From positions 992,001-1,056,000 of the forward strand of contig CANXME010000213.1 of the NCBI GenBank assembly GCA_948144175.1: 64,000 nt of DNA, read 5' to 3'. Positions 6,552-61,814 of the stretch are shown here, in pieces. A model generated the notes under the pieces. That model made no database searches. It was not told the DNA's origin and worked only from the letters and a program-made list of their open reading frames with translations. Each line of letters starts with the position of its first letter. Positions within the stretch are counted from its first letter, which is position 1. A program made the position numbers and the translations under genes. The stretch comes from Closterium sp. NIES-65 (Eukaryota > Streptophyta > Zygnematophyceae > Desmidiales > Closteriaceae).

Positions 6552-7993
<1,442 letters not shown>

Positions 7994-22201: not shown

Positions 22202-22481
22202 TGTAAGGAAATTTTCCTTTCCATTAATCCTAGTTTAATGCTTCTCGTACAATCCCACACTTTCAATCTTCGCACGTTCGACCGACATCCACGATTCCGA
22301 AGTTGCCTCGTGTCGCCTTCAAATTTCTCTTCGCCAAACCTGCACCCAATGTCGCGTTCCCAACGTTCCCTCCCAGCTAGGGTAGTCACTATATTATCAC
22401 CTGCCTTTATTGTATGATGAGTTCATTCAGTCATAGCTTCGATATTCATTTTCAATGCAAAATGTTTTACAGCTCATAACA
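22202..22481 (+). repeat. 5' LTR of Gypsy G1
   Basis: 280 bp, starting TGTAAGG and ending ATAACA. Aligns with the split 3' LTR through shared blocks such as CGCGTTCCC/GCGTTCCC, AGCTAGGGTAGTCAC and TTCATTCAGTCA. Confidence 0.85.
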
Positions 22482-23046
22482 CCTGGTATCAGAGCTACTT
22501 TCCTAGTTCACCCCGCTTTTTGAGGGTAGTCTCGTAACACGGGTGTGGCTGGTACGGTGGGGCTGCAAAACTGCTGGCAACAAGGTATATTAAATTGAAC
22601 TTGCCCGACTCTAAACGTTTCTGCGCTTTCACTGTTGCCTGAAGGCCACGGATACTCCTATGCTTACTAGACAAAGTTTGCGACTCATGGACCAGGCCAA
22701 GGAGTGAGTGGTGTCGTTGTGAAAACAAAGAACGAGAATGGAATCACTATGAACGAAGAGGGTACAAATAGGAAACCCTAATTGGGTTGTACCCCCTATG
22801 GGATACCCCACTATAGCCTACAGAAACAAGTAAGCTATAAGTTCTGACACACCCCCATAGGCAAAGTGGGGGAGAACAAGGGGTCACAAGACCAGTCAAG
22901 CAAAGCAAAGCAAAGCTCAGGGTGGATCACAAAGTCACCACGCATTCCGAGCACAAGTTCAAAGGCCACAAGGCCAGTTCACATGCAAGATCATATATAG
23001 AGATATACAAGAGCAAGAGTATATATATGCGAAAGTACAAGCAAGG

Positions 23047-26000
23047 TCAAGAGGAGAGCAAGTGAGGCAAGACAGGCACAAGACCCAACTGCGTGCAGCA
23101 ACGCTGATGATCACAAGGCGCAAGTGCCTTGGTGAAGACATCAGCAGTGTTGGCCTCAGAGGCCACGTACGCAAGTCGCAGCTGTCCACGCTGCTGTAGC
23201 TCACGAGCAAGAAAGTAGCGAAGAGCAATGTGCTTCGTTCTGTGCTCCAGTCGCTGCTCTCGACACAAGGCCAGCATGGCCTTGTTGTCTACGTACAGGA
23301 CTGGAGGAGAACGAGGCTGCTCTCCAAGGTCGGTCAGCAGGTAGGTGAGCCAGCGTAACTCCTGTGCAGCCATAGCCCCAGCGTAGATCTCAGCCTCACA
23401 ACTGGAGCCGAGAACAGAAGACGAGCGGGTAGCCCGCCACGAGACAGAGCCGGAACCAAGGCTGAAGGTGTAACCCTGTGACGACCGCTGCGTAGCCTGG
23501 TCGTCAGCCCAAGAAGCGTCTGCGTGCCCAGTGAGGACCACTGGACTGCGCCCTCCAAGCACTAGCCCCATGCCCGACGTACTGCACAAGTAGCGCAACA
23601 CCCTCTTCGCTGCAGCCATGTGCTCTGGTCGGTGTCTCCCAGGAGCAACAAAGCGTGCGAGAATGCTAAGAGGGTATGCGAGGTCAGGTCGTGTGCAGGT
23701 CATCAGGTACATGAGGCAGCCAACAAGCTCTGCAAACGGGCCACTCGACTCTACGGACTCATCCGAAGGCAGAGCTGAGAGCGAGTGGCGAGTAGGCAGA
23801 GGAGTGGCCTGAGGCGAGGAGTACGTGAAGCCGAAGCGCTGAAGGACCTGCTGCACCATGTGTGACTGAGTCAGGGTAATGGTGCGGCGTGCTCTGTCCC
23901 GGGTGATCTGCAAGCCAAGGTAGCTGCGCAGTTCACCCAGGTCAGTGCACGTGTGTCTCTTCTGCAGCTCGGACTTCACGTAGGCGAGTCCAGCAGTGTC
24001 AGCTGTGGCAAAGACCAAGTCGTCGACGTACACGAGGATGTAGAACGGCGGCAGAGAGGTGTCGGTGCGCAGAAACAGCGACGGGTCGGCAGTGGAAGGA
24101 GCAAACCCAAGTGCCGCGAGCGTAGTCCTCAGTGTGTCGTGCCACTCACGTGGCGCCTGGCGGAGACCGTAGACTGGACGCCGGAGACTCCACTGGGTAC
24201 CAGGAGGGAAGGACCCAGTGAAGCCAGGTGGGCGACGCAGCCAGATCTCCTCGTGCAGGCTGCCCTGCAAGAAAGCAGTGCTGAAGTCGAGAGAGTGCAG
24301 CTCGTAGTCACGGTGAGCAGCAACGTGTAGCAGAACCCGAAGAGTGGTCATCTTCGGGGTGGGGGAGAAGGTCTGAAAGTAGTCAACCCCCTGCCGCTGA
24401 CTTAAGCCACGAGCCACGTAACGCGCCTTGAAGACAGGCGGAGAACCCGGCGGCCGCTTCACCCTGAAAATCCACATGCCACTGACGATGTTCGCCCCAG
24501 GAGGGGGAACAGCGTCAACGTTGGTGCCTGTGGACTTCCAGGAAGCCATCTCTGCATCCATAGCTGCCTGCCACTGAGAGGAGTAGGGACCCTCTATCGC
24601 CTCCGCGTAAGAGCGCGGAGTCGGGATGTCTGGTGCATCCGGGTCTCCCTCAGGGGCTAGCAGTACAGACGCGAGACGAGGTGAAGCGGCGGCCAGACAC
24701 TGGAACTCCTCCTGCCTGTCCTCAAGGACGTCCGTGCCAAGGGCACACTCACCCCCGACGGACGGAGGACAGGCGGACGCAGACTCAGTGACAAGACGAG
24801 CAGCGTAGTCTAGACGACAGCGCGCAGCAAAGTCGACAAGCTCAGTGACAAGGGCAGACGCAGCAGACGACTCGAAGGAGGGGTCAGTGACAGCAGTAGC
24901 CAGGAGACGCGTGACAGTAGGACTGGCAGCACGAAGAGCGTCCGACTCCGGGTCGGCAAGAGCAGGAAGAGAGGAAGCAGGAGGAGAAGGCAAAGGGGCA
25001 CGCAGGGGAGCAGTGGACGGACGCAGTGACATCCGGTGCGTGCCAGGGACAGGAGGAGGACGCTGACGCGAGCCGCGACCACTAGCGCGCTCAGTACGAA
25101 CAGGCGACACAGGACGAGACGCAGGCTCACGACGCTCAGTAAGACCTCCAGTCGGACCAGCGTAGGGAGAAGGAGCAGGCAAAGGGGAGGCAGGCTGTAG
25201 CTGTGGCTGTGACCGGACAGGCTGCAGACCCTCTAAGGGAGGAGGAGGAGGTGTAAGACCAAGAACCTGCTGCAGGAGCGGAACGAAGTACGGTCGGGGC
25301 CGCGCGGCGACGCTAGAAACAGCAGGAACAGCACCAACAGCCCCGGCAGGAGCACCCACTCCAGCAGCACCTCCAGCAGCACCACCAGAAGCTCCAGAAC
25401 CTCCAGCCGCAGCACCAGGAGCACTGTCAGTCGTGCCGCCAACGGCAGGCTCAGCGCCAACACCCTCAGCAGGACTAGCTCCAGGAGAACTCTCAGACTT
25501 AGCAGCTCCAGCACCCACAGTACGAGCGCCGGCGGGGCGCGCAGCAGCAGTACCCTCTGCACCAGCAGCACGCCTCCAGCGCCCGGCAAACCACTCACGC
25601 AGCTCCTGTGGGGAGAGTGGCTCCCGGCGAGACGAAGCACCCCCACGCACAGCACCTCCAGGCTCAGCACCCCTAGACACAGCACCCCCAGGCTCAGCAC
25701 CCCCAGGCACAGCACCCCCAGGCACAGCACCTCCAGGCTCAGCACCCCCAGGCACAGCACCCCCAGGCTCAGCACCCCCAGGCTCAGCACCCCCAAACTC
25801 GGCACCTCCAGGCTCAGCACCCCCAGACTCCGCACCCCCAGGCTCAGCTCCCGCAGCAGCACCAGAGTCACCAGTGACCTCGACAGGCTCGACCGCGTCT
25901 ACCTGGGACACACCTGAAGGGGCAGGACCCTGAGGGGGGAGGGGGACTACCGGGGGGGGACCTGGTACCAAGAAGAGCGGGGGTGGGGGGAGGGACGGAG

Positions 26001-28971
26001 TGCGGTAGGGGAAGAGGCGGTAGTAGGGTACCGACTCGTCGAACGTGACGTCCTGGGAGGACAGAACACGTCGAGAGGTGGGGTGGTAAAACTGCCACCC
26101 AGGGGCGTCGGGGGGGAACCCCAGGAAGACGCAGGGAGAAGCACGAGGGGACAGCTTGTCCGCAGACAGGTCGCGAACAAACGCCCGAGATCCCCAGACC
26201 CGGAACGCCGACGCATCGCCAACCTTCCCAGTCCACAGCAGGGCTGGGGAGGTCTCCGGTCGAGAGACCCTGGGGTGGAGGTTGATCTGGTGCGCCGCGT
26301 ACCTGACCGCAAACGGCCACAGAAAATGGGGAGCAGCCGCATGCATCATGGACGTACGAGCGACGTCCATGACCATGCCAATGCGGCGCTCAGCAATCCC
26401 ATTCTGCTGCGGTGAGTCCGGAAGCGTGAAGGTCTGACGGATGCCTCGCGCACGACAGTAGGCACTCAGGAGGCCAGAGGAGAACTCTCCGCCTCTGTCC
26501 GAGTGCAGACGCAAAACAGGGAAGTCAGAGCCAAAGCTCCTCCGAAGCTGGAGACGAGCTACGCGGATCCAGTCGATCAACACCGCAGTGACCTCACCCT
26601 TGCTGCGCAAGGGGAAGACTGTGGTGTAACGCGAGTAGTCGTCAACCACCAGCAGGAAGTAGCGCTCCTGACCCTGTCCACGGACGCGGGCTGGGCCCCA
26701 CACATCCATGTGAAGCGTCTGCAACGGGGCCTCTGTCGGAGGAAACTGGGAGGAGTGAGGGGCAGCACGCTGGCGCCCCTCGACACAGGGGACACAGGTG
26801 GGGCCAGGGCCCGGAGGGAGGGGAGGGAGAGACCGGGGAAGACCAGACACAAGGACTCGCGAGGCCATGCCTCTGAGCCGAAGCAGAGAGGGGTGGCCAA
26901 GGCGGTGGTGCCAGAGGAGGGTCTCGTGAGACAGACGACGGCACGAGCAGGGGGCAGACTCAGGACCAGACCTGGACGCTGCAGCAAACACCTGACCAGA
27001 CGAAGTGACCCTACCAGACTCAGCACCTGGAGGAGAAGCAGTGGTCAGAGTGTACAGGCTCGACCCTGGCTGACGTGTAAACGTAGCCAGGTGGCGACCT
27101 GTATCCGCCTCCGTGCAGTGGGTCACCCGCTGACGAGCAGGGGTGAACTGGTGGACACCCGCATCCTGGAGGTCAGCACCACTCACCAAGTTCGTCGAGA
27201 ACGAGGGGAGGTAAAGACCAGTCAGGGTGCCAGAGGGGGCCGCCGGACACGGGAGGACAGTGGAGAAGCGAGACAGGACAGGCCCCCCAGAGGGGTCAGC
27301 CAGGGACACCGCAACCGGCCGACTAAGCGGCGTGAGAGTGGTGCGGTCCCGAAAGAAGGAGCGAGACGCTCCAGAGTCAAGGGTGAAGGTGTGGGAGGCC
27401 GAAGCCGACACAGTACTTGAGAGGGCAGACTCACCAGCACCTGAGAGCACAGACGCACTGGCACCTAGAGCAGCAGCCTCACTAGTACCTGACGCGGCAG
27501 TACCAATGCCCGGGTCGGGCGGGAAACACCGGTAACAGTCATCCTCATCACTACCAATCGCAGCATACATAGCAGAGAGAATAGCATCAAAATCAAGATC
27601 ATAAATAGCTACACCAGCCCTAGACAGCTCTCCCCAGCGGGGGATCTCAGCTGCCTCCGGAAACTGCTGACGCCAGGCGTCAGTCAGGCGGCCAAAGCAG
27701 CGGCGGGCAGTGTGGGCGCCTCCACACCTCTCCCCTGCACGGTCACCGGTGCGGAGAACGTAGGGGCAAGGACCAAGCGCACCACCACGCTGACGCTGCG
27801 AGTACCACTCACGGAGCTGCTGAGGGGCGGGGACGGTGCGAGAGCGCTGCTGGTGCTGTGGCTGCTGCTGCGGCTGCTGCTGCTGCTGCTGCTGGCGCTG
27901 ACCACCCCCGGAGCTGCTCCGCTGAGACGAGCCACTCCGACCCCCGCCTCCACTGCCACCCCCGCCTCCACCGCCACCCCCGTCTCCACCTCCACCTCCC
28001 CCACCAGGACCGTCGCTCCCACCGCTCCCACCGCCTCCTCCGCTACCACCTCCGCCGCCACCTCCGCCTCCACCGCCGCCACCAGTACCTCCACTCCCGC
28101 CACCACCCCCACCGCCACCCCCACTCCCCCCGCCACCCCCACCGCCTCCTCCACCGCCCCCTCTAGCTCCACCCGCTCCCTTGCCCCCCTTGCCCTTGCC
28201 AGCGCGACGTCTGCTGCTGGGGGCAGACGCCGCGCCGACCGACTCAAAACCAGTGAGGTCGGCCGCAGCGGCAGAGGCGACAGAGGGCAGCAGGGGGGAA
28301 GGACCACACCCCTCAAAGATGGGGGTGCGAGGGTCACCCCGAGAGGCCCCTACAGCGACAATACTCTTCTCAGCCGCTAGCAGGGACTCCTCAAGGAGGT
28401 CGACAGTGAGAGTGGTGGGACAGACAGAGAGAAACTGGTCCCTAACGACACGAAGGGACTCAGGGAGACGGGTGACGAGAAAGTAGAGAGTGATGTACAT
28501 GGGAGGAGGGTTCGCAGCGCGGAACTCAGCAGGAAGGGCAGCGCGGTAGCGGGTGTCACTAGCACGGAGGTGGGTAACGAGGTCAGTGACAGTGGGAAAG
28601 GAAGCGAGGTCAGGGAAGAGAAACGGTAGCATGAGGCGGCTAAGGGTAGCGGAGGAAGGGGAGGAGTAGCGTGCAACTACAGCGTCGTACAAGGCCTGAG
28701 CGGTCTTGCACTGACTAAAGTGGGCACGCTCAGAGGAAGGGAGGTGGCGACGCACAGCAAGACGTGCAGCAGCATCGCGGGTCGCCCACTTGGAGCGAAC
28801 GGCAGAGTCAGCATCAGCAGGTGGGGCAGGGACAGCGCCAGAGACAAAGTCAAAGAGAGAGACCTCATCTATCGCATCACACAGTAAGTACAGCTGCAGG
28901 TCTTCAATCCAGACGGCAAAGTCAATGGCCCTCCCCTCAGCGTCAAAGGTAAGAACATTGGGGGTGGCCAT
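23047..28971 (-). CDS. Copia gag-pol polyprotein of element B
   Basis: A single frame of about 1974 residues counted from the Met of MATPNVLTFDAEGR, the start shared by the related elements here. An in-frame upstream Met at 29082 would add 37 low-complexity residues. Domains in order: gag (1-about 220); glycine-rich stretch (about 265-370); a Cys/His motif with CGGAHTARRC; protease LDSGAS (about 530); GAG-pre-integrase WHHRLGH; integrase with DVWGP, SDRGGEF and NGIAERR (about 755-860); a linker of GGAEP-type pentapeptides (about 1040-1110); RT with YVDDLVF (about 1650); RNase H with GHADASWADD (about 1815) and a C-terminal segment ending LPHLLSS. Domain order is Copia. The single-frame arrangement is common in Copia, where gag and pol are made as one protein. 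Confidence 0.93.
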   Translation of the reverse strand: MATPNVLTFDAEGRAIDFAVWIEDLQLYLLCDAIDEVSLFDFVSGAVPAPPADADSAVRSKWATRDAAARLAVRRHLPSSERAHFSQCKTAQALYDAVVARYSSPSSATLSRLMLPFLFPDLASFPTVTDLVTHLRASDTRYRAALPAEFRAANPPPMYITLYFLVTRLPESLRVVRDQFLSVCPTTLTVDLLEESLLAAEKSIVAVGASRGDPRTPIFEGCGPSPLLPSVASAAAADLTGFESVGAASAPSSRRRAGKGKGGKGAGGARGGGGGGGGGGGGSGGGGGGGGGSGGTGGGGGGGGGGGGGSGGGGGSGGSDGPGGGGGGGDGGGGGGGGGSGGGGRSGSSQRSSSGGGQRQQQQQQQPQQQPQHQQRSRTVPAPQQLREWYSQRQRGGALGPCPYVLRTGDRAGERCGGAHTARRCFGRLTDAWRQQFPEAAEIPRWGELSRAGVAIYDLDFDAILSAMYAAIGSDEDDCYRCFPPDPGIGTAASGTSEAAALGASASVLSGAGESALSSTVSASASHTFTLDSGASRSFFRDRTTLTPLSRPVAVSLADPSGGPVLSRFSTVLPCPAAPSGTLTGLYLPSFSTNLVSGADLQDAGVHQFTPARQRVTHCTEADTGRHLATFTRQPGSSLYTLTTASPPGAESGRVTSSGQVFAAASRSGPESAPCSCRRLSHETLLWHHRLGHPSLLRLRGMASRVLVSGLPRSLPPLPPGPGPTCVPCVEGRQRAAPHSSQFPPTEAPLQTLHMDVWGPARVRGQGQERYFLLVVDDYSRYTTVFPLRSKGEVTAVLIDWIRVARLQLRRSFGSDFPVLRLHSDRGGEFSSGLLSAYCRARGIRQTFTLPDSPQQNGIAERRIGMVMDVARTSMMHAAAPHFLWPFAVRYAAHQINLHPRVSRPETSPALLWTGKVGDASAFRVWGSRAFVRDLSADKLSPRASPCVFLGFPPDAPGWQFYHPTSRRVLSSQDVTFDESVPYYRLFPYRTPSLPPPPLFLVPGPPPVVPLPPQGPAPSGVSQVDAVEPVEVTGDSGAAAGAEPGGAESGGAEPGGAEFGGAEPGGAEPGGAVPGGAEPGGAVPGGAVPGGAEPGGAVSRGAEPGGAVRGGASSRREPLSPQELREWFAGRWRRAAGAEGTAAARPAGARTVGAGAAKSESSPGASPAEGVGAEPAVGGTTDSAPGAAAGGSGASGGAAGGAAGVGAPAGAVGAVPAVSSVAARPRPYFVPLLQQVLGLTPPPPPLEGLQPVRSQPQLQPASPLPAPSPYAGPTGGLTERREPASRPVSPVRTERASGRGSRQRPPPVPGTHRMSLRPSTAPLRAPLPSPPASSLPALADPESDALRAASPTVTRLLATAVTDPSFESSAASALVTELVDFAARCRLDYAARLVTESASACPPSVGGECALGTDVLEDRQEEFQCLAAASPRLASVLLAPEGDPDAPDIPTPRSYAEAIEGPYSSQWQAAMDAEMASWKSTGTNVDAVPPPGANIVSGMWIFRVKRPPGSPPVFKARYVARGLSQRQGVDYFQTFSPTPKMTTLRVLLHVAAHRDYELHSLDFSTAFLQGSLHEEIWLRRPPGFTGSFPPGTQWSLRRPVYGLRQAPREWHDTLRTTLAALGFAPSTADPSLFLRTDTSLPPFYILVYVDDLVFATADTAGLAYVKSELQKRHTCTDLGELRSYLGLQITRDRARRTITLTQSHMVQQVLQRFGFTYSSPQATPLPTRHSLSALPSDESVESSGPFAELVGCLMYLMTCTRPDLAYPLSILARFVAPGRHRPEHMAAAKRVLRYLCSTSGMGLVLGGRSPVVLTGHADASWADDQATQRSSQGYTFSLGSGSVSWRATRSSSVLGSSCEAEIYAGAMAAQELRWLTYLLTDLGEQPRSPPVLYVDNKAMLALCREQRLEHRTKHIALRYFLARELQQRGQLRLAYVASEANTADVFTKALAPCDHQRCCTQLGLVPVLPHLLSS

Positions 28972-29039
28972 GACAGCAGCTGAAAATCTCACCGGGCGGG
29001 GAGAGGCAGGTAGGTCAGCAGCAGAGGAACAGCAGCACG

Positions 29040-29345
29040 GCTCCGCAGGCGGCTCGGGCGGCGCGGGCGGCTCGGGCGGCACGGGCGGCTCGGCGGCGGC
29101 TCGGGCGGCGGCTCGGCGGCGGCTCGGCGGCGGCTCGGCGGCGGCTCAGGCGGCGGCGGCTCGGCTGCTGCTGGGCGGCGCGGGCGGCTCGGGCGTCACG
29201 GGCGGCTCGGCGGCGGCTCGGGCGGCTCGGCGGCGGCTCGGGCGGCGGCTCGGCGGCGGCTCGGCGGCGGCTCAGCGGCGGCTCGGCGGCGGCTCGGCGG
29301 CGGCTCGGCGGCGGCTCGGCGGCGGCTCAGGCGGCGGCGGCTGCT
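29040..29345. repeat. CTCGGCGGCGG repeats in the leader of element B
   Basis: About 25 imperfect copies of an 11-bp unit CTCGGCGGCGG and variants, between gag and the larger array on its 5' side. Non-coding in the element's orientation. Confidence 0.85.
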
Positions 29346-29357
29346 GCTGGGCGGATC

Positions 29358-29815
29358 GGCGGGGCCGCGTAGCAGAGTGGCGGCGGGGCCGCGACCGAAG
29401 AGAGCGGCGGGGCCGCGTAGCAGAGGGCGGCGGGGCCGCGTAGCAGAGGGCGGCGGGGCCGCTACCGAAGAGAGCGGCGGGGCCGCGTAGCAGGGGGCGG
29501 CGGGGCCGCGATCGAAGGGCGGCGGGGCCGCGTGGCAGAGGGCGGCGGGGCCGCGTAGCAGAGGGCGGCGGGGCCGCGTGGCAAAGGGCGGCGGGGCCGC
29601 GATCGAAGGGCGGCGGGGCCGCGTGGCAGAGGGCGGCGGGGCCGCGTAGCAGAGGGCGGCGGGGCCGCGTAGCCGAGGGCGGCGGGGCCGCGATCGAAGG
29701 GCGGCGGCGGGGCCGCGTAGCAGAGGGCGGCGGGGCCGCGATCGAAGGGCGGCGGGGCCGCTAGGGAAGGGCGGCGGAGCCGCGAGGGGAAGGGCGGCGC
29801 AACGGTCCGCTAGGG
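29358..29815. repeat. GGCGGGGCCGCGTAGCAGAG array in the leader of element B
   Basis: About 20 units of 20-24 bp built on GGCGGCGGGGCCGCG followed by TAGCAGAG, ATCGAAG or TGGCAGAG. Very GC-rich, between primer site and gag. No counterpart unit sequence in the leaders of the other Copia elements. Confidence 0.88.
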
Positions 29816-30048
29816 GCGACACGACGGGTCGCTAAAAAAAAAAACGCGCCTCGGGGCGCGGTTCGGTGGGCCCTAGAAGCAGTCCCTAGGAGGGAACCTG
29901 CTCTGATTCCATGTGAAAACAAAGAACGAGAATGGAATCACTATGAACGAAGAGGGTACAAATAGGAAACCCTAATTGGGTTGTACCCCCTATGGGATAC
30001 CCCACTATAGCCTACAGACACAAGTAAGCTATAAGTTCTGACAGTCGT

Positions 30049-30340
30049 AACAACGGACGAGCTTACACGCAGTGTTGAGGAAAGTGATAATGCCGGCACC
30101 AGCAATTGCAGTTACTACGATCAAGATCAAGCCGATGAGCCCGCCCCGTTCACCCCTATGAACAAGAACGTAATAGTGAAAGGGTGGCTGTTCGACGTGG
30201 AGGTCTTCTTTACTGCGGCAAGTGTTGACGATGATGCCACGCGTATTAACTATGCGGTTTTGCTTCTCCAAGGACCCGCACTGGAGTGGTGGCGATGTAC
30301 CTTGGACACGGGGACCCCGACAGGTGTGACTCATGCGGCA
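30049..30340 (+). pseudogene. Gypsy G1 gag fragment
   Basis: Part of the Gypsy gag between insertions B and D, recognised by VKGWLFDVEVFF and by LLLQGPALEWWR, the conserved capsid motif of Ty3/Gypsy gag. Fossil piece. Confidence 0.8.
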
Positions 30341-30345
30341 GACGG

Positions 30346-31895
30346 TGTCATAATATTATGCTTGTCTAGTCTGTAGTGGGGTACTTAATAGTGAGCATAA
30401 CCCTTTTGGGCTTGCTATTTGTATCCCCCTCCTTTCTAGTTCAAACTCTCTTTTGCCTATTCTCTCTTGCCTAGCTAGCTAAACCCTAGCTATGGCTCCT
30501 ACATTCTAGCTGTTATTCTGGCATGCTATCAGAGCGGTTACGCTCTTGGCCTGTGGGCCCACCTGCTTCCGCTGCCCTACTATGTGCCGCGCGCACTGTG
30601 GCGCGCGATGTTCGATTTTTCTTCCCGCCACACGCTCGGGGCGCGTGGTGGTTTTCTGCCCGCCACGTGCTCGGGGCGCATGGCGGTTTCCTGCCCGCCG
30701 CGCGCCTGGGGCGCGCGCGGCGGTTTCGTCGCCCGACGCGGCGCCCCGGGGCCCGCGCCTTGCCTCTCCTTTTGTCGCCCGTCGGCGCGCGCCGGGGACC
30801 CGTGCGTCGCCTTCCGTCATCCGTCGTTGCACCCCCGGGGACCAGCGGGCTCCCCCTGTTGTTCGTCGCGGCGCCCTCGGGGACCCGTGTGCGGCCCCCC
30901 CCGTCGCCCGTCATGGCGCCCCCCGTCGACCCGCCCGCCGCCCTTGGGGACCCGCGCGCCCGTTCCCGTCGACCTGCGCGCCCCTCCCGTGGACTCGTGC
31001 GCCGCTCACGGGGACCTCCCCGGCTGCCCCCGTCGACCTGCGCGCCCCTCCCATGGACCCGCGCGCCGCCCCCGGGGACCTCCGCGGCCGCCCCCGTCGA
31101 CCCGCACGCAGCCTCCCCCCCCCCCCCCCCCCCCCTTTCTTCTTCGCCTCCCTGCTACGCATGCAGCTGTGGGGTGGAGGGTATGGGGGTGGCGGGTGTG
31201 TGAGCAATCACCTGCTCCTCCTCCTCCTTCGTCTCCCACTGCTGCAGCTGCCGCTGAGGGGGGTGGGTGTGTGGGAGCCGAGGGAGAGGTGCTATAGGGG
31301 GGTGACGTGGGAGTGGAGCTAGGGGTGCAGCAAGGGGTGTGTGCAAGGGGGGTGGGATAGTTGGGGGAGGTTGAGCGGAGGTTGAGCGGAGGTTGAGCTG
31401 TCGTGTCGCCAGCAGCGCCAGTAGTCCGGAGGCTACAATCTCCGGTAGTCGCCAGTCGCCCGTGGGTCAGTTGCTCCAGCCGCCCGGCATAGCCGCGGAG
31501 CCAGTTACTCCTATAGTCCGGGCCTTTTCTTCGGTAGCCACTGAGCCAGCCGCTATCGTGTGTCTGCAGCTTCCGTCGTCGCCTCCCATCTCCCCTCCTC
31601 TCACATTTCCTCCTCCTCACTGGCCCTCTGTGAATGCCTCTAGCTTTGCTTGTACTTGTGAACCTGCTCTATGACTGCTTGCTGTGCTGATTATACCCCA
31701 CTTTGACTATGGGGGTGTGTCAGAATATTATGCTTGTCTAGTCTGTAGTGGGGTACTCAATAGTGAGTATAACCCTTTTGGGCTTGCTATTTGTATCCCC
31801 CTCTTTTCGAGTTCAAACTCTCTTTTGCTTATTCTCTCTTGCCTAGCTAGCTAAACCCTAGCTATGGCTCATGCATTCTAGCTGCACTTCTAACA
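30346..31895 (+). mobile_element. Gene-less LTR retrotransposon (element D, LARD/TRIM type)
   Basis: Two 178-bp LTRs (30346-30523 and 31718-31895) with about a dozen differences, flanked by a perfect duplication GACGG (30341-30345 and 31896-31900). The primer site TGCTATCAGAGCGG follows the 5' LTR. The 1.2-kb interior is GC-rich and low-complexity (about 30560-31130), with no gag or pol domain in any frame. Its end CCCCACTTTGACTATGGGGG before the 3' LTR is nearly identical to that of the Copia elements around it, suggesting they move it. It sits in Gypsy gag. Confidence 0.9.
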
Positions 31896-31900
31896 GACGG

Positions 31901-32739
31901 GACCTCAACCTCCGCTAATCAAAGGGCATAATAAATATTTGGTGTGACCAAAATTCGCGCATAGAAGGAGTGGGGCGCAGCCTAGCGGGATCGCTTCGAG
32001 CATGTTTCTGCCCTGGAACAAGCTCGCATGAAGTTGCATACCTGGTCGCACTTGACATTTAGACTAAATTACGTCGTTTAGGGCGCTTGCCGATTAAGTG
32101 GACGACATGGCGGACCTGGAGTGGTTGGACAATACATCAGCGGCTTGAAGTACGAGATACAGTACAAGGTCCGCCGAAGCCGCCTGGTTACATTCCTGAA
32201 AGCCGTGCAATTGGCCGAGTCTACAGATACGTTGATGCAGTGGGCGAGGCCGAGTTTTCGAGAGGGAAACTGTTTCACAGATAGACCCAGCGGGCCACGA
32301 TTAACGGAGTCAATGCACCCGACCGCCCTTTCACAGGGTTGTGTTATAAGTGCGGGAAGTCGGGTCACATATATAGAGACTGCCCCGACAAAATGCCGTG
32401 GAAGAAGAACGGCGGAAAAGAGCAGGGAAATGGGAAGAGTCAGTAATAAAAGGCCCACCTACTGGCTATGCTCTGTCGCACCGAGTCGTGATTCCGATGC
32501 ATGCAATCGATTGCACTCGACCGAAAGGGGATAGCAATGAGGATTTAAAAAATGTTCATCGATGGCGGGGCTAGCCATAGCCTCTCCAATCTGGCAACAA
32601 AAAAAAGCAAGTTGCAGCTGGACAGATGCCTACGAAGTTGATGCTTGCCTCGTGGATGGGACGCCTCTTGCGGTTTTGGAGGAAACACGGATGGCGCGCA
32701 TTGAGAGCGGCGACGATTTTGGCTTTAGCATGAAGTTCC
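31901..32739 (+). pseudogene. Gypsy G1 gag C-terminus, zinc knuckle and protease start
   Basis: Decayed gag, then a CCHC knuckle CYKCGKSGHIYRDCP (about 32341-32385) and a protease-like FIDGGASHS (about 32555-32580). Broken in several places. It ends where the next Copia element begins. Confidence 0.75.
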
Positions 32740-32999
32740 TGTCAGACTTATATGATCTAGCCTGTGTAGGCTGTAGCGGGTTAGATACTAAGGGGTACAC
32801 AATTCTAGGGTTTCATATTTGTATCACACTCATTCCTTAGTCAATCATTCCTCGTGATTCTCACATGGTATAGAGCAGGTTCCCTAGTGGGAACGTTTCC
32901 TACGGCCCACCACTGAAAATCGATTTTTTTTTTCCTGCCCGGAGCGCGCTTCACGTGTGCCTACCCTCCCGTCGCGTCCCCTGCCCTTAGCGGCCCGTC

Positions 33000-37700: not shown

Positions 37701-37969
37701 CCGACCTCGCCGACCCGTGCCCACCACCTAGAGGCCCCGGGCGGCCCGTTCCCGCTGCAGCACACGAGGGAGAGCGGGCGGCCCGTCCCCGCCGTGACCC
37801 GAGCTGCGCGACCCGAGCCGCGCGCCCCGGGCCGAGCCGCGCGCCCTGAACCGAGCCGCGCCACCCAGCCGAGCCGCGACCCGACCTGAACCGAGCCGCG
37901 CCGCCCTGCCCTACCTGGTTCGTCCTACTTGCTTCTCCTACTGCTACTGCTGCTATTTCTACTGTTCCT

Positions 37970-52866: not shown

Positions 52867-53105
52867 GAAATGCCCCAACCTTGCTCGATAAGAAATTTCA
52901 CTTTCGATACTAGAATTTGCGTACTATAACACCACTTCTAGCACGACTAATCTCTCCCCTAGTTTTCCCTAAACTACATGTTGGACCCAGTGGTACTGAC
53001 AACGACATCCCTCGAGAAACCAGTACTAAGGTCCCAAGACTTTATGACGAAACTGCAAGAAATTCACGACGAAGCAGCTGACGCCATAAGGAAGGATAAC
53101 GTCGT
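52867..53105 (+). pseudogene. Gypsy G1 tail before its 3' LTR
   Basis: Unassigned tail of the Gypsy interior between Copia G and the 3' LTR, decayed. A purine-rich AAGGAAGGATAACG lies just ahead of the LTR at about 53090 and may be the old polypurine tract. Confidence 0.5.
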
Positions 53106-54274
53106 TGCCCGCAAATATTCGATATCCTTCATTTCCGTTATCGGGGTTTACTGATTCGCGTACAGCCCCACACTCACAAACTTCGCATTTATAGCCGACG
53201 TCCTTGATTCCGAGGTTGCATCGTGTCGCCTTCGGCTTTCCCTTTGCCAAACCTGCACCCAACTTTGCGTTCCCGAGGTTTGTTGTATGCATGTCAGTTT
53301 GAGTGCATGTCATCCTAACGTCCTGCTGTATGCTCGTGCAATCCATGCTTGTGTCAATTGCATGAGCTTAAATCATTATGTATGGCTGTTGGATTTTATC
53401 ACCTCTGTGTTTTTCTCCAAGTCTAAATGCTTGACCGCGCTAGAGAAATCCATGGCTTTTCAACGATACCAAGACCGCCTTATTCCGACCAATATCGCCC
53501 AAGTTACAAGATTTCCAAGTTTTGTGAATTCTATCTTAAGTTGGGATATTAACTTAAGTGGGCGATTATTGGGTCATGATTATAAAGGGATCTTATATTT
53601 GGGTGGTTAGGAAGGCACCTTTGACTTTTGGATTGGGGTGGCTATAAGTTTATAGCATGGGTTGCAAATGTTGCAACACCCAGGCATGATTTTGCATGTG
53701 ACATCTCAAGAACGTCATCATAAGGGTTGCATATTTGATGCTATGAAGGTTCTCACTACCCTTTCAAAGCATTTGGAGAGCCCTTCCCTCACAAGGTTCT
53801 CATGAAACCCCCCAACTCCTTATTATATGCCTAATGCTTGTTCTTCCTCCATTCATTCCAGTGAAAGCAACAGCTATACCTTTTTAGTTGGTTCTCACTC
53901 CCTGGACCATGAAATCAAGTGATTCAACTTCAAATGGTAGCGAAAACCAGCACGCGCAATCTTACTTAGCGGATTTACGTTTAGTTGAGATTTGAGTTCG
54001 TCGTAAGTCTTCAAAGTGACCGGATCCTATGCAACAAGTGGTATTAGAGCTGGTGGTCGACTTTGAAGCGACGAATCGTCATCGATTCTCAACCAATTTT
54101 GACAAGTGAAACCATTTGATTATTACTCTGCTCGCGATCTTTTGATTGGTGGTCGAATCGCGTTCTGTTTTGACGTGTGCTAACCGCGACGGCGTTATTC
54201 GTAAATGCGAAATTTCTGGCATAATCTTGTCCAAGCGTTTTTTCTTAAGATTCAAACGTGCCGAAGGCCTTGTG

Positions 54275-55001
54275 ATGGCTGAGACGGACACCAGAGATGC
54301 TACTGATGAGATGGGCGGGAGTGGAGAGGTTGGAGAGGAAGAGAGAGTAGTTGGTGGTGGAGTGGGAACTCACCAACCAACTATCCCTGTGCTACCCTCT
54401 TCCATTACACCATCTCCTATATCTGTGGATCCTATGAAAGTCTTCTCTATTGATAAGTCCATGGGGAAGGATTATGAGCACAAGAGATTTTGTATGAGGC
54501 TCATGTTTACCCAATACACGTGATTGGATATGGTAGAAGGAAAAGAAAAGATGTCAGAGGCCTTGGACTTGAAAAGAGCATGGATAAAACGCTCATTTGA
54601 TGCATACATGCCCATGGTCCAAGCGGTTGGTGGACGCCAACTTGACCATATCAAAGGCCAATTGAGTGATCCCGAGTGTGGACCCAAGGCATGGAGGAAA
54701 CTCTTTAATGAACACTCACCAACACATGCTACAGGCATCATGCTACTTGCGCGGCGATTGCGCGACATCAAATTTGTTGATGGAGAGCCAATGCAGCCCG
54801 TGTTGGATGAGATGCGAGACATCATCACGAAACTCAAGAGTGGTGGCGTTGTCTACCCTGAACTTGTTCAATGCGCGAAGATAAGGATCCGACTTCCTGA
54901 GTCGTGGTATGCCCTAACCATCAACCTCAACTCCGAGCAATCCCAATGGAGTGTGGATAACATTCGTGCAAGAATCCTTGAAGAGGATTTGAGGCGCTTA
55001 A
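54275..55001 (+). pseudogene. Gag of element H, first part
   Basis: Begins MAETDTRDATDEMGG. Later stretches (AWIKRSFDAYMPMVQAVGG, LRDIKFVDGEPMQPVLDEM, LPESWYALTINLNSEQ) fit the UBN2-type gag of Copia elements. Fossil. Confidence 0.7.
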
Positions 55002-55176
55002 AGCCCAACACCTGAATTACTCAACGGAAGTCAACGCTAAAAGCTAGGTTCGGGAGGCAGGCACGGAGAGGTTCGGTTGGGTTGCGAGAGACTTTCACTC
55101 GCGAAACCAATTTGCGACAATCTCGCTTCCCATGATGGCTGGGGTTCTTCCCACAACCAGAAATGCGCGAGCATAC

Positions 55177-55194
55177 CAAACTGTGCACAGTTTG
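55177..55194. promoter_or_regulatory. Subterminal palindrome, left end of the TIR element
   Basis: CAAACTGTGCACAGTTTG is a perfect 18-bp palindrome about 175 bp from the left terminus, repeated exactly near the right end. Likely a transposase-binding site by analogy with other TIR elements. Confidence 0.55.
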
Positions 55195-55399
55195 AGATAG
55201 CACGCAGAGTATTAGGTATAGACCATACCTGTAGACAGGGCAGGGCGTCGGCGTTCACTCATATGGGATCAGATACGCCATACGATGTGGGTGGCGCGGA
55301 TTTAGATGATGATGCGCAAAGCTAGTGTCCGCTGGATGAAGATTATTGTGTCGAAATGCAGGTTATTGTGCAACTAGCGTAATCCCGCGGCGAAAATCG

Positions 55400-57230
55400 A
55401 ATTGCCACCGTTCGCCCAAACGTGACCCTCCCTTCGCCCTCGCTTTCCTTTCCCACGCTTCCGCTCTTTTTTGTCCGCGTCGTCGCCCTCGCTTTCCTTT
55501 CTCACGCTTCCCCTCTCTTTCGCCCGCGTCGTCGCCCTCGCTTCCGCAGCTCGTCGCGTGCCCGTCGCCTTCGCTCCGCCCGTCGCCTTCACTTCCCCCC
55601 CGTCGCCTTCACTCCCCCCCCTCCCCCCCCTCTTCTGTTGCCTTCATTTCCCCCTCCCCGTCGCCTTCACTTCCCCCTCTCGTCGCCTTCACTTCCCCTC
55701 CTGTCGCCTTCATTTCCCCCTCCCGTCGCCTTCACTTCCCCCTCCCGTCGCCTTCATTTCCCCCTCCCGTCGCCCTCACTTCCCCTCCCGTCGCCTTCAT
55801 TTCCCCCTCCCGTCGCCTTCACTTTCCCCTTCCGTCGCCTTCATTTCCCCCTCCCATCGCCCTCACTTCCCCTCCCGTCGCCTTCCCTTCCCTCTCCCGT
55901 CGCCTTCACTTCTCTCCCCCGATGCCTTCGATTCCCCCTCCCGTCGCCTTCCACGCCTGTCGCACTCGCTTTCCCGCCCGTCACACTCGCTTCCCCACCC
56001 GCCACCTTCCCTTCCCCTCCCATTGCCTTTCACTCTCTCCTGTTCACTCTCTTTCCCTCTGCTCACTCTCTTTCCCCCTGATCACTCGCTTCCCCCCTCC
56101 TCAATCTCTTTCCCTCTGCTCACTCCCCTTGTTCTAACCCCACTCTCCCCATTTCTCACCCATTTTCCCCCTTTACGCTCTCTTACCCCCTCTGCTCGCC
56201 CCTGTTTTCCTGGCTCACTCCTATACTCACTCTCTCCCCCCCTGCTCACTCTCTTCCCCCCTGCTCACTCTCTTTCCCCCTTCTCACTCTCTTTCCCCCT
56301 TCACGCTCTCTTTCCCTCCCTTCCGCCCGTCGCCCCCCTTCGTCTCATCGACCTCCCTGCTGCTCGTCGCCTTCGCTCCCGCTCGTCCCCTCGCAATCCC
56401 CGTCTCTCTCTCCCCCCTTCGCCCTCCCTTCCACTCCTCGTTGCCCTCGCCATCCCTCCCTTCTCCCTTCCCATCTCGCACACTTGTCACGCCCCCTTTC
56501 CAACCCGCACATACACCCTTCCCTTCTTCCCTGTTTCCCCGCATCCCTTGTGCTGCTTTCCCCCATCCTCCGACTTGCTCCCCCCATCCCCTTCCCTGCT
56601 TCCCCCCGTCCCCTCCCCTGCCTCCCCCCATCCCCTTCCCTGCTTCCCCCCATCTCCTTCCCTGCTTCCCCCCATCCCCTTCCCCCCTTCGGCCCGTGCC
56701 CTCCCCTGCCTCCCCCCATCCCCTTCCCTGCTTCCCCCCAACCCCTTCCCTGCTTCCCCCCTTCCCCTTCCCTGCTTCCCCCCCGTCCCCTTCCCTCCTT
56801 CCCCGCGTCCCCTCCCCTGCCTCCCCCCATCCCCTTCCCTGCTTCCCCCACCCCCTTCCCTGCTCCCCCCAATCCCCTTCCCTGCTTCCCCCCGTCCCCT
56901 TCCCTCCTTCCCCCGTCCCCCTCCCAGCATCCCCCCATCCCCTTCCCTGCTCCCCCCCATCCCCTTCCCTGCTTCCCCCCATCCCCTTTCCTGATTCCCC
57001 CCATCTCCTTCCCTGCTCCCCCCCATCGCCTTCCCTGCTCATTCTTGCTCCCTTTATTTCACCCTTGCTCCCTCCCCTTCTTCTCTTCTCACTCTCTTCC
57101 CCCTTCCTCACTCTGTTCCCCCCTGCTTCCTCTCTTCCCCTCTGTTCAATCTGTCCCCCGCTGCTTCTTCTCTTCCCCTCTGCTCATTCCGTTTACTGTC
57201 TTCCCCCCTTCACTCACCCCCATACCCCCC
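55400..57230. repeat. Polypyrimidine tract with CTTCACTTCCCCCTCCCGTCG-type minisatellites
   Basis: About 1.8 kb of almost pure C/T. It includes a roughly 24-bp unit based on CGCCTTCACTTCCCCCTCC (55580-55900) and a roughly 20-bp unit CCCCCATCCCCTTCCCTGCTT (56570-57030). Long frames here are repeat shadows, not genes. Confidence 0.85.
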
Positions 57231-57819
57231 AATGCAGTTACAGGTGCCCAGGACCAGATGTGGCTTAACATGGCCTGGTTTATTGCTTGCAGTATAGCAG
57301 ACAAAACCGGGAAGCAACATTACACACACCCCCAAGCTTTGTTCCCTTCTCGAGTCTCGTGATTCCCCTTATTTTACAGATACTGTAATATATTAATTGT
57401 TGAACTCCCTGGTATTGGTCATGTGTATGACTGCTCTGAGGCTCATAATCCTGTATTATTACAAATTATCCAATACATGGCAAGGCTATACATCGTGTTA
57501 CTACGGTATCAGACAGCCAACACATCACAAACCCAGAAGTCAGATGTGACGTGGCTGAAGTATAAGGGAAGCAGGCATGCATAAGAATGACAACTGGCAA
57601 ATAAGGAAAGGAGGAACGGAGGGAGGAAGTGAGGAATGCAGGAATGAAGGAAGTAATGATGGGAGGAAGGGAGGTAGGGAGGATTCTTGGGGGAGAAGCA
57701 GAAGGGAGGGGAGGAAGAGAGGCTGGGGAGGAGGGTGGGAAGGAGGGTGAAACTTGGCAGAAGAATGATGGGATCGGGAAAGGAGGGACGAGGAAACGAG
57801 GAAAAGAGGAAACGAGGAA

Positions 57820-58205
57820 TGGGGTGGGGCAGAAAGGGGTGGGGCGGAATGGGGTGGGGCAAAAAGGGGTGGGGCAGAATGGGGTGGGGCGGAATTGGGT
57901 GGGGCGGAATGGGGTGGGGCAGAAAGGGGTGGGGCGGAATGGGGTGGGGCAGAAAGGGGTGGGGCGGAATGGGGTGGGGCGGAAAGGGGTGGGGCGGAAT
58001 GGGGTGGGGCGGAAAGGGGTGGGGCGGAATGGGATGGGGCGGAATGGGGTGGGGCGCAAAGGGGTGGGGCGGAATGGGGTGGGGCGGAAAGGGGTGGGGC
58101 GGAATGGGGTGGGGCAGAAAGGGGTGGGGCGGAATGGGGTGGGGCGGAATGGGGTGGGGCGGAATGGGGTGGGGCGGAACGGGGTGGGGCGGAATGGGGT
58201 GAGGC
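57820..58205. repeat. 15-bp G-rich array GGAATGGGGTGGGGC
   Basis: About 25 units of 15 bp (GGAATGGGGTGGGGC, alternating with GGAAAGGGGTGGGGC). Every unit carries two runs of four Gs, so the plus strand has strong G-quadruplex potential throughout. Confidence 0.92.
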
Positions 58206-58435
58206 GGATTGGGGAGATGAGGGATGGGGAGATGAGGGATGAGGAGATGAGGGATGGGGAGGTGTGGGATGGGGAGGAGAGGGCTGGGGAGGAGAGGGAT
58301 GGGGAGGTCAGGGATGGGGAGATGAGGGATGGGGAGATGAGGGAAGGGGAGATGGGGAATGGGGAGATGAGGGATGGGGAGATGAGGAATGGGGAGATGA
58401 GGGAAGGGGAGATGAGGGAAGGGGAAATGAACGTG
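58206..58435. repeat. 15-bp array GATGAGGGATGGGGA
   Basis: About 15 units of GATGAGGGATGGGGA and variants, directly continuing the previous array with the same period. Confidence 0.88.
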
Positions 58436-58464
58436 TATGCGACGGAAGGGTGCTGCTAGCCACT

Positions 58465-58790
58465 GGCGGTGGGCGACAGTGGCGGTGGGGGGAAGCGTGG
58501 GCGACGGTGGCGGTGGGGGGAAGCGTGGGCGACGGTGGCGGTGGGGGGAAGCGTGGGCAACGGTGGCGGTGGGGGGAAGCGTGGGCGACGGTGGCGGTGG
58601 GGGGAAGCGTGGGCGACGGTGGCGGTGGGGGGAAGCGTGGGCGACGGTGGCGGTGGGGGGAAGCGTGGGCGGCGGTGGCGGTGGGGGGAAGCGTGGGCGA
58701 CGGTGGGGGGAAGCGTGGGCGACGGTGGGGGGAAGCGTGGGCGACGGTAGGAGGAAGCAAGGGTGACGGTGGGGGGAAGCGTGGGACAGA
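58465..58790. repeat. 28-bp array GACGGTGGCGGTGGGGGGAAGCGTGGGC
   Basis: Unit based on GGTGGGGGGAAGCGTGGGC with an optional GGC insertion, about 12 copies of 22-28 bp. The same unit reappears at 59715-59870. Confidence 0.9.
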
Positions 58791-58938
58791 GTAACTCAGC
58801 CATATGACGAGGGAGGAAGGAAACACCTGAGGCGCCAAAGAGGCAGGGGCACACTGTAGTACAAGAGAAGCGCTGGATGCAGGCAGACGAACTAGGGGGA
58901 GAAAGAGCCGACATCTGATGGTGCAGGCTGGGAATAAC

Positions 58939-59013
58939 CTTGCAAATCACATGCGGGTAGCCCACCCATTCCCACGTCACGTGGCACGTCACCCCGTCCA
59001 CCTGCAGCGGTGC
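58939..59013 (-). other. Exon-like segment inside the TIR element
   Basis: Minus-strand 75-nt stretch reading APLQVDGVTCHVTWEWVGY then PHVICK, bounded by ...GTGAAG/ and /GTTATT, in phase 0. Unlike its surroundings it is not low-complexity. A second such piece lies further upstream on the minus strand around 59420-59180 (ERWGWGRDSIAVGCHK, then after GGCAG/ VLLRLWRRALGAQPGQR). They may be exons of a host gene captured by the transposon. I do not recognise the protein. Confidence 0.3.
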
Positions 59014-59714
59014 CTTCACAACGGAGAAGGGAGGGGAGGACGACTGTGGGGTAATGAACGAACAGAGTAAGGGAGGAGGGCAGGAGGTAAAAATGTGGCA
59101 TGGTAAAAGGGTGGATAGGATAGGAGGATGCCTGGACCCTCTCTCCCTCCCCTCCACCTCCCCTGCCCCGCCTCCCCCGCTCCCCTGCCCCCTGTCATCT
59201 GAAGCACTGCGCTCCTTGCTGCCCGACTGCACGCGCTGCCCCGGCTGTGCGCCCAGCGCTCTTCTCCAAAGCCGCAGCAGCACCTGCCATGCGTGCGGGG
59301 TTGGTGCAAGAGAGAGAAGGGTGGGTGCTGCTGATGCACCTTGTGACATCCCACCGCGATCGAGTCACGACCCCATCCCCAGCGCTCGAGACCTGCCCGC
59401 CATAGGTCCGCGGCCAGGGTGGGTGAGAGGCAGGGAGGGAGGGAGAATGAGAGAAGGAAAGGAGGGTGCAAGGATGGGGTGGTAGGAGTGAGAAGGTGGT
59501 AATGGGGAGAGCGAGAGCGACCAAATGCGGCAATGGGAAGGGAAGCAACAACGATAGGAACAGATGAGAGGGTGGGCGGCGTGGGTGGAGAAGCAATGGT
59601 GATGAAGAGGTGGAACGTGATTGGCAAGGAACTGATGACGACGTGGAGAGAGGTGGGAGAGAAGGGAGGTCGGCGGGGAGGCTCATTTCCAGGCGACAGG
59701 GAGGAGGATGAGAG

Positions 59715-59880
59715 GGGAAGCGTGGGCGACGGTGGGGGGAAGCGTGGGCGACGGTGGGGGGAAGCGTGGGCGATGTGGGGGTAAGCGTGGGCGACGTTGG
59801 GGGAAAGCGTGGGCGACGGTGGGGGGAAGCGTGAGCGACGGTGGGGGGAAGCGTGAGTGACGGTGGGAGGAACCGTAGGC
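59715..59880. repeat. 22-bp array GACGGTGGGGGGAAGCGTGGGC
   Basis: About seven imperfect units, related to the array at 58465-58790. Confidence 0.85.
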
Positions 59881-59999
59881 GATGAGCGGGGAAGTGTGAG
59901 GGAAGGTGGGGGAAGGAAGGGGTGAGCGACGATGTGGGGAAGCGTTGGTAAAGGCAGGAGGAAGCGTGAGCGGCGGTAAGGGGAAGCGTGAGCGGTGGT

Positions 60000-60265
60000 G
60001 GGGAAGAGCTCGGGCGACGGTGAGGAAGAGCTCGGGCGACGGTAAGGAAGAGCTCGGGCGACGGTGAGGAAGAGCTCGGGCGACGGTGAGGAAGAGCTTG
60101 GGTGATGGTGAGGAAGAGCTCGGGCGACGGTGAGGAAGAGCTCGGGCGACGGTGAGGAAGAGCTCGGGCGACGGTGAGGAAGAGCTCGGGCGACGGTGAG
60201 GAAGAGCTCGGGCGACGGTGAGGAAGAGCTCGGGTGACGGTGAGGAAGAGCTCGGGCGACAGTGA
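60000..60265. repeat. 22-bp array GAAGAGCTCGGGCGACGGTGAG
   Basis: About 12 near-identical 22-bp units, each containing a SacI-type GAGCTC. Near the right end of the TIR element. Confidence 0.93.
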
Positions 60266-60769
60266 GGGGAAGCGTGGGTGTGCGTGGGGGAGTGTGTAAG
60301 AGACGGTGGGGGGAAGCGTGTGGAACGCGGAAGGCGATAGGGCCTAAATGCGATGTGCGCGGGGTTGCGATGCCAGGGCGAGCGAGATCGAAAACGTGAT
60401 ACGCCACTAACATAGTTGCTGTCATGCCGATAAGCCACGACCATCAATCCGTTCGGGGTTTCTATTTTGGCCGCAGGATAGATACGCCTGGATTTCTAAG
60501 GGTCCCGTAATATTCGTGAAAGCGATCGTGGCCTATGCTATGTTATAATTTTTTTCCGGACTCTTGGAACAATCTACGAGTAGTAGGAAAAGCACGACCT
60601 GAATTACCAATGTAGGCAAACTGTGCACACTTAGAGTGGTTGTTCCTTGAGAAAGGTGTTGGGACCCTCGCCAACCAAACCTCTTCTACTGCACGACTCA
60701 GTGTTTTTTTGTGTGCGATCTTTTCTGGTAACCAGCCTGGCTCGGGAAGTCAGCTGTGGGTTCGGTAGG

Positions 60770-60787
60770 CAAACTGTGCACAGTTTG
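60770..60787. promoter_or_regulatory. Subterminal palindrome, right end of the TIR element
   Basis: The same perfect 18-bp palindrome, about 32 bp from the right terminus. A third partial copy (CAAACTGTGCACA) is at 60617-60629, and a copy of the inner TIR sequence (GACCTGAATTAC) at 60596-60607. Confidence 0.55.
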
Positions 60788-61814
60788 CCATCTTTTTTTT
60801 GTAATTCAGGTCTTGGGCTTTAAGTGTAGAGCATTCAAGGGATGGTGCTGGTTATGGAGCTGGAGGTGGGAAGAGCGGCTTCAAAAAGAAGTGGAAGGGC
60901 AAAAAGAATGAGAACTCCCAAGAGGAGAGTGGCGGAGGTCAGGGAGAGGTGTGCTTGTATTGCAAGAAGCGCTACATGTCATCCTAATGTACTGCTGTGT
61001 GCTCGTGCAATCCATACTTGAATCAATTGCATGAGCTTAAATCATTATGCATGGCTGTTAGATTTTATCACCTCTGTGTTTCTCTCCAAGTCTAAATGCT
61101 TGATCGCGCAGGAGAAATCCATGGCTTTTCAACGATACCAAGTGTGTCTTGTTCCGACCAAGATCGCCCAAGTTACAAGATTTCCAAGATTTGTGAATTC
61201 TATCTTAAGTTGGGATACTAACTAAAGTGGACGATTATTGGGTGATGATTATAAAGGGATCTTTAGTTGGGTGGTTAGGAAGGCAACTTTGACTTTTGGA
61301 TTGGGTGGCTAGAAGTTTCTAGCATGGGTTGCAGATGTTGCAACATCTAGGCAAAATCCAATTGGATTGGATTTTGCATGTGACATCTCAAGGACGTCAT
61401 CATGATGGTTGCATCTTTGATGCTATGAAGGCTCCCACTATCCTTCCAAAACATTGGAAGAGCCCTTCCCTCATAAGGTTCTCATGAAATATCTCAACTC
61501 CTTATTCTATGCCTAATGTTAGTTCTTCCTCCATTCATTCTAGTGAAAGCAGCAGATATATCTTTTTTGTTGGTTCTCACTCCCTAATGATAGCTAAGAC
61601 CAGCGCGCGCAATCCTACCAAGCGGATTTGCGTCTAGTTGAGATTTGAGTTCGTCGTAAGTCTTCAAAATGACTGGATCCTATGCAACAAGGTTCCCGCC
61701 TAGCTAGGGTAGTCACGCTATAAACACCTGCCTTCAATGTATGATCAGTTCATTCAGTCACAGCTTCGTTCTTCGTTTTCCGCGCAACTCTCATTTACAA
61801 CTCATAACAGGTTA

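Follow-up and report, generated by a model that had tools for sequence, protein, structure and literature searches.

We analysed a 64,000-nucleotide stretch of DNA from Closterium sp. NIES-65, referred to below as the window (positions 992,001 to 1,056,000 of contig CANXME010000213.1, assembly GCA_948144175.1; G000:C213:992001-1056000 in our own numbering). The contig, C213, is 4.79 Mb long and belongs to an assembly of 874 Mb in 2400 contigs, whilst the window itself has a G+C content of 57.5 % by its own base counts. From 22202 to 61809 it is occupied by a decayed Ty3/gypsy retrotransposon, here called A, together with the elements lodged inside it. A preliminary description, made from the sequence alone, had proposed a nested stack with a Gypsy element as host, and this was borne out: comparison of the window with itself and inspection of the element borders reproduced the stack, refined its borders and added both a target site duplication (TSD) around the host and Ty3/gypsy domains within it. 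The components of the nest, with their long terminal repeats (LTRs), are as follows.

22202-61809, plus strand: host A, decayed Ty3/gypsy element with TGT...ACA ends; TSD GGTTA on both sides, exact
22202-22717, 30044-30345, 31896-32739, 45089-46909, 52867-53280 and 61690-61809, plus strand: the pieces of A's own sequence
22202-22481, plus strand: 5' LTR of A; its partner, at 53128-53280 and 61695-61809, is split by H
22718-30043, minus strand: B, Ty1/copia element; TSD GTCGT, exact; 132-bp LTRs, 99.2 % identical
30346-31895, plus strand: D, short LTR element of 1.55 kb; TSD GACGG, exact; 178-bp LTRs, 92.7 % identical
32740-45088, plus strand: E, probable Ty1/copia recombinant; flanks GTTCC and CCGAT, no TSD match
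32740-32865 (5') and 44974-45088 (3'), plus strand: LTRs of E, of different subfamilies
36811-42794, plus strand: F, Ty1/copia element inside E; TSD CGCTG, exact; LTRs 98.5 % identical
46910-52866, plus strand: G, Ty1/copia element; TSD GAACT, right copy GAAAT; LTRs 92.3 % identical over 117 columns
53281-61689, plus strand: H, Ty1/copia element inside the 3' LTR of A; TSD AGGTT, exact
55002-60819, no strand assigned: TTAA-flanked DNA transposon in the gag of H; TTAA at 54998-55001 and 60820-60823

Only ∼4.0 kb of A's own sequence is left within its span of 39.6 kb, and its LTR pair retains 77.5 % identity over 267 columns. Four of nine stop-free pieces of A matched Pfam, in the order zf-CCHC (1e-6), RVT_1 (2.7e-4), RT_RNaseH (7e-19) and rve (5e-4) along the element, the RVT_1 and rve scores lying below the curated cut-offs; an open frame in a relative of A (L005) holds protease, RVT_1, RNase H, H2C2 and rve in that order, all above the cut-offs. 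A thus shows the marks of a Ty3/gypsy element, namely an RVT_1-type reverse transcriptase, RNase H, an integrase placed after the reverse transcriptase, and LTRs with a target duplication. Its wider family was represented by 56 loci, 55 of which match at least one piece of A (L004 matches none), with identities mostly of 70–77 % over the protease-to-integrase pieces. No allelic contig was seen for A among 40 scored candidates, the next best of which reached 75 %. As two random positions of the window share an exact 5-mer with a chance of only 0.0013 (0.018 for a match at four or more of the five bases), the five exact 5-bp pairs listed above are far beyond chance. The nest is real and well-formed; its element types are known and their arrangement is unremarkable.

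The preliminary description had counted E among five direct insertions into A and had found no match between its flanks. The flanks indeed do not match, but E did not prove to be one clean insertion. Both of its LTR termini are intact and abut host sequence, and host bases are absent from between them: in all 41 of the 56 loci examined that contain both flanks, this site holds 495–539 bases (524 in 31 of the 41) that A lacks. The lowest value, 495 (L053), was extrapolated over 134 bases and is uncertain, and the 41 loci amount to fewer than 41 independent copies, as some partly overlap or are duplicated (e.g. L003/L025, L024/L054, L043/L044). In 35 of the 41, CCGAT, the first five host bases past E, lies 6 bp upstream of the gap's right point. 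Given 524 bases in most loci and the position of CCGAT 6 bp upstream of that point, the comparison with these relatives indicates that ∼518 bp of A are missing between the flanks of E, and that another 6 bp are gone immediately to the right of CCGAT. The gap ends at both LTR termini. A clean insertion whose TSD has eroded was rejected for E, since it is contradicted by the missing host bases. We also rejected B and F as the cause of the gap, since their duplications are exact and they lie elsewhere.

The same flanks bear on whether the junctions of E could be an assembly misjoin between similar copia copies. Such copies are abundant and their coding parts are mostly 85–97 % alike, which would leave room for an error of this kind. 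On the other hand, the contig is long (4.79 Mb), both flanks consist of A sequence, follow one another in the proper order and orientation and lie ∼518 bp apart in relatives, and F sits inside E with an intact TSD; moreover, a misjoin would need to have brought together two sites of the same A copy. We hold this explanation to be extremely improbable.

The LTRs of E are 71–76 % identical to one another, depending on the alignment (K 0.289). Its 5' LTR has 99.2 % identity to the 5' LTR of each of three other loci, L059, L061 and L062, of which L061 and L062 carry the same LTR type at both ends, whilst its 3' LTR is 91.3 % identical to a copia element that lies in the window to the left of the nest.

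10286-17098, plus strand: X, Ty1/copia element outside A; TSD CCTAC, exact; LTRs 93.7 % identical; subfamily reference for the 3' LTR of E

At diagnostic sites that distinguish X from L061/L062 (read in E from 32740 to 36300 and from 42800 to 45088), the first 1 kb of E agrees with L061/L062 at 150 and with X at 29, and the last 289 bp agrees with X at 29 and with L061/L062 at seven, a switch of subfamily with a Fisher p of ∼1e-13. These comparisons can be set against the possibility that E is an ordinary, old single insertion, with LTRs that have simply aged or a 5' LTR that has undergone gene conversion, and that the host gap is an unrelated deletion. This would not lack precedent: PMC7251063 reports 1042 of 4126 nested/original pairs in plants in which the nested LTRs were the more diverged, and attributes this to gene conversion. 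Nevertheless, age alone fails to account for LTRs that are 99 % and 91 % identical to other subfamilies and so much less alike between themselves, and a 5' LTR nearly identical to those of other loci was rejected as being merely old. Furthermore, a gap that ends at both LTR termini is unlike an unrelated deletion. The single old insertion, already disfavoured on these grounds, is in our view very improbable.

We favour instead, with a probability of roughly 0.8, the explanation that E represents two insertions merged by recombination, with the loss of ∼518 bp of A. Two fused insertions would explain the ends of different subfamilies, the absent TSD and a host gap that ends at both LTR termini. 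In the course of events that we envisage, the old Ty3/gypsy element A was used repeatedly as a landing ground by Ty1/copia elements and by D, a short, copia-like non-autonomous element. B, D, F, G and H each arrived with a 5-bp target duplication, and apart from small alignment gaps no host was lost where they inserted. At E, by contrast, two copia elements from different subfamilies would have landed in the same orientation ∼520 bp apart in A, and homologous recombination would have removed the 3' end of the left element, the host between the two and the 5' part of the right element. The outcome would be one element such as that seen here, with intact outer termini, unmatched LTRs, no TSD and a host gap of ∼518 bp. 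F landed in E material, where it has a TSD of its own, most simply after the fusion, and a TTAA-specific DNA transposon landed inside H. Counted in this manner, the direct insertions into A would number at least six rather than five.

Recombinants of this kind have been described before. PMC1950507 names different outer LTRs and an absent TSD as marks of inter-element recombination, PMC7251063 counts elements that are intact but lack TSDs among the products of unequal recombination, and both cite Devos et al. on inter-element unequal recombination. E resembles the recombinants described in these two papers in that it has no TSD, its outer LTRs derive from different elements and the intervening sequence is lost. 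It differs in that the length of the lost host is measurable (∼518 bp), since A, a repeat in its own right, has relatives in which the stretch is preserved.

A number of observations weigh against the fusion of two insertions. The crossover in E is not sharp: the diagnostic sites of 33740-36239 lean to X (127 vs 93), those of 36240-36300 and 42800-43049 to L061/L062 (41 vs 8), and those of 43050-44799 are mixed (29 vs 39); the last switch falls between ∼43.05 and 44.8 kb, and the 5' half is a mosaic. With leanings that alternate in this way through its middle, E or its parents were already mosaics. Moreover, L061 and L062 share a flank and are 97.6 % alike, probably representing one duplicated insertion and hence a single reference. 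No more than five bases (CCGAT) mark where the host gap ends on the right, and the lost half of neither parent of E is visible. Finally, L063, a further locus with an E-type 5' LTR, has unmatched LTRs and yet near-matching flanks (GAAGC/GAAGG), which hints that unmatched LTRs are able to arise in another way.

One such way would be a single aberrant integration of copia DNA that already possessed unmatched LTRs, owing to strand transfer between two co-packaged copies, with its ends joined ∼520 bp apart and the host between them deleted. The intact LTR termini of E, both abutting host, would suit this explanation, as would recombinant LTRs in extrachromosomal copies of Onsen, for which PMC5668417 describes pairwise recombination during reverse transcription. 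It would also be consistent with the six loci fetched for the likeness of their 5' LTR to that of E, a small sample selected on that very likeness: L061 and L062 have matched LTRs, L059, L060 and L063 (three of the six) have an unmatched next LTR, with flanks that agree at four of five bases in L063, and L064 is interrupted by another LTR ∼470 bp in. A flank match of that quality is expected by chance in 1.8 % of pairs, however, and reverse transcription in its normal course yields two identical LTRs (PMC1950507); in addition, two unusual events would be required here, as opposed to one for recombination. We therefore regard a single aberrant integration as unlikely. In view of the six-locus sample it is conceivable, though not established, that unmatched-LTR elements in some cases integrated as such. 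More generally, elements of this copia group with unmatched LTRs might arise when co-packaged copies swap the 5' LTR and leader, either before the element integrates or as it does so. We think this very unlikely; if true, E and L063 would come from one recurrent process rather than from chance recombination after insertion, and dating by LTR pairs would be unreliable across the whole copia group. As a separate observation, L060 has at 6521-7300 a second LTR with a further leader behind it, an arrangement like that of tandem or three-LTR elements.

In order to compare the elements by age, we used the bootstrapped Kimura two-parameter (K2P) divergence between the LTRs of each (interval in brackets). 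The values were 0.008 (0–0.023) for B, 0.015 (0–0.039) for F, 0.066 (0.024–0.120) for X, 0.077 (0.041–0.129) for D, 0.081 (0.035–0.141) for G, 0.102 (0.077–0.129) for H, 0.269 (0.202–0.347) for A and 0.289 (0.181–0.415) for E; before the trimming of non-LTR end columns, A and H stood at 0.276 and 0.123. In every replicate the value of A was above those of H, G, D and B, and D and G each exceeded both B and F in at least 99 %, whilst G over D (0.54), H over G (0.75) and F over B (0.79) were not statistically separated. The preliminary description had held that LTR divergence agrees with the order of insertion. This stands for the low values of B and F, the greater age of D and G, and the position of A above B, D, G and H; it does not extend to an order between G and D, which the divergence does not provide, and it fails for E, which is as divergent as its host. 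With P(K_A>K_E) at 0.40, the LTR ages give no support to the nesting order at this one element, which by the standard that the preliminary description set for itself counts there against its reading; the nesting order itself stands. That the divergence of E is not below that of A is likely explained by the LTRs of E not being a pair from a single insertion. Certainty of order comes only from the nesting: A preceded all the others, E material preceded F, and H preceded the TTAA element. The LTR comparison further places D and G before B and F, and A before B, D, G and H.

All of the elements, and the proposed recombination at E, belong to known kinds, and in large plant-like genomes the nesting of retrotransposons is routine. 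What the locus offers is a point of method: the LTR ages of the nest are out of order at E, and relatives of the host reveal the likely cause. PMC7251063 found that in ∼25 % of nested elements the LTRs had diverged further than those of the host, and pointed to gene conversion; E suggests that inter-element recombination is able to give the same signal, and comparison with host relatives offers a simple way of separating the two.

For the remaining insertions, the TSDs previously given for B, D, F, H and the TTAA element proved exact, and the corresponding sites are read across in relatives. At the B site, host sequence is continuous at the insertion point in the six relatives shown. About 150 bp present in all six are absent from A ∼24 bp upstream of B, and the alignment has further gaps of 6 and 8 bases in A farther right. 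We rejected the ∼150-bp gap as a product of the B insertion, given its distance from the insertion point and the exact duplication, and by this comparison it is a separate event, one that the preliminary description had not mentioned. B contains a single open frame (23047-29145, 2032 aa) with integrase before RVT_2; this long frame, like that of F (37850-42430, 1526 aa), is in keeping with a recent arrival.

The D site is likewise continuous in the five relatives shown, with a single copy of the TSD. No Pfam match was found in the one reading frame of D scanned (30479-31297), and nine other rows from the genome cover its positions 1–3 to 1538 or beyond at 74–80 % identity, on which basis D represents a short non-autonomous family. 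Short non-autonomous LTR elements form the TRIM/LARD class. D resembles this class in being short, bounded by LTRs, repeated in the genome and free of coding domains in the frame scanned; at 1.55 kb it exceeds the usual length of a TRIM and falls short of that of a LARD. The stretch just 5' of the 3' LTRs (e.g. ∼52715-52735 and ∼31695-31715) reads CCCCCACTTTGCCTATGGGGG or similar, an inverted repeat common to the copia elements and D, which suggests that D may be a copia derivative.

The flanks of G were confirmed as GAACT and GAAAT. Host sequence is continuous at this site in the six relatives shown, which read ...AAACTGCCCC through it, and from this reading GAAAT is a mutated right copy of GAACT; the insertion is backed less by the 4/5 match of its TSD than by these relatives. 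By eye, the 5' LTR end and primer site of G are partly deleted. H, whose site is continuous in the four relatives shown, has a copia-type gag (PF14223, 3e-19) at 54524-55015. H has no pol: its gag runs straight into the 3' LTR (from 60975), itself without its first 25 bp, and leaves no room for it. A genome search with the gag/LTR junction gave 41 rows, among which only the window's own copy holds the junction. We rejected the junction as a family feature, the gag side being covered by the window's copy alone and another row being H's own 5' LTR; it looks like a private deletion, as far as these rows indicate.

The nesting of F in E and of the TTAA element in H was confirmed as well. At the F site the flanks of E adjoin exactly in the copia relative L061 (5206/5207). 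Three relatives of H read across the transposon site without loss, with CTAA, CAAA and CGAA there, so that none of the three has TTAA itself. Just inside its TTAA duplication the element has a 19-bp terminal inverted repeat with 18 matching positions, and its interior consists of low-complexity arrays that are rich in C in the left part and in G in the right part. Its right end recurs in the genome: 38 of 40 other rows end at query positions 380–388, at or near the TTAA end (384), and the other two end at 271. DNA transposons specific for TTAA include those of the piggyBac type. The element resembles this type in its 4-bp TTAA duplication and short terminal inverted repeats; it differs in that no Pfam match, and hence no transposase, was found in the five reading frames tested, and in its mostly low-complexity interior. 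A search for the PF13843 DDE transposase gave no matches genome-wide, but none in the control genomes either, so that the search had no positive control. A ∼240-bp copy with nearly the same terminal repeats (L068, G000:C287:173150-173650) has the appearance of a miniature element and TTAA on one side only.

Copia-type RVT_2 was present by Pfam in B, E, F, G and X, and the full order gag_pre-integrs, rve, SH3 and RVT_2 was seen only in B and X. Upstream of RVT_2, the same five elements have a tandem array of 15-bp (five-codon) units of varying length, which in X, B and F lies inside a long open frame.

14399-14522: 15-bp array of X
25636-25856: 15-bp array of B
35897-36084: 15-bp array of E
39360-39596: 15-bp array of F
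49705-49949: 15-bp array of G

Further GC-rich tandem arrays occur in copia leaders or gag regions at 10531-10963, 29038-29799, 32983-33310 and 37058-37696.

The repeated landing in A had also been presented as occurring there rather than in flanking DNA, which was not supported, as the flanks hold X and two further copia sequences.

17777-18673: copia fragment outside A
from ∼63110: copia element leaving the right end of the window

A density test that set insertions in A (six of nine) against length gave p = 0.01, with E counted as two, the flanking host roughly estimated at 14 kb and the window chosen for its nest; it counts for little as evidence of targeting. In plants, nesting is common and non-random, with LTRs and integrase as the least-used regions, according to PMC6911290, which covers 1491 nested/original LTR pairs in 12 genomes; complex and nested LTR elements are also the subject of a tool paper (PMC5379124). 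The present nest resembles those of PMC6911290 in having younger LTR elements in an older one at several levels, and differs in the landing sites of H (an LTR) and of G (the integrase region). The presence of H and G in least-used regions comes from one locus, constitutes no trend and proves nothing about preference.

By eye, a second gypsy-like LTR and leader (61865-63110) seems to start ∼55 bp past A and is broken by the copia element that leaves the window; no Pfam match was found in two frames of it. Elsewhere in the assembly, a search with rbcL (a frame of 482 aa) returned 24 rows, 20 of which had the same score, recurring, often in opposite orientations, on several contigs (C75, C97, C162, C1848, C2174 and others), as if plastid DNA had been assembled many times. 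Within the window, ∼14 kb to the left of A, exons of an actin gene lie on the minus strand at 6643-7880 (PF00022, 4e-72 and 8e-46).

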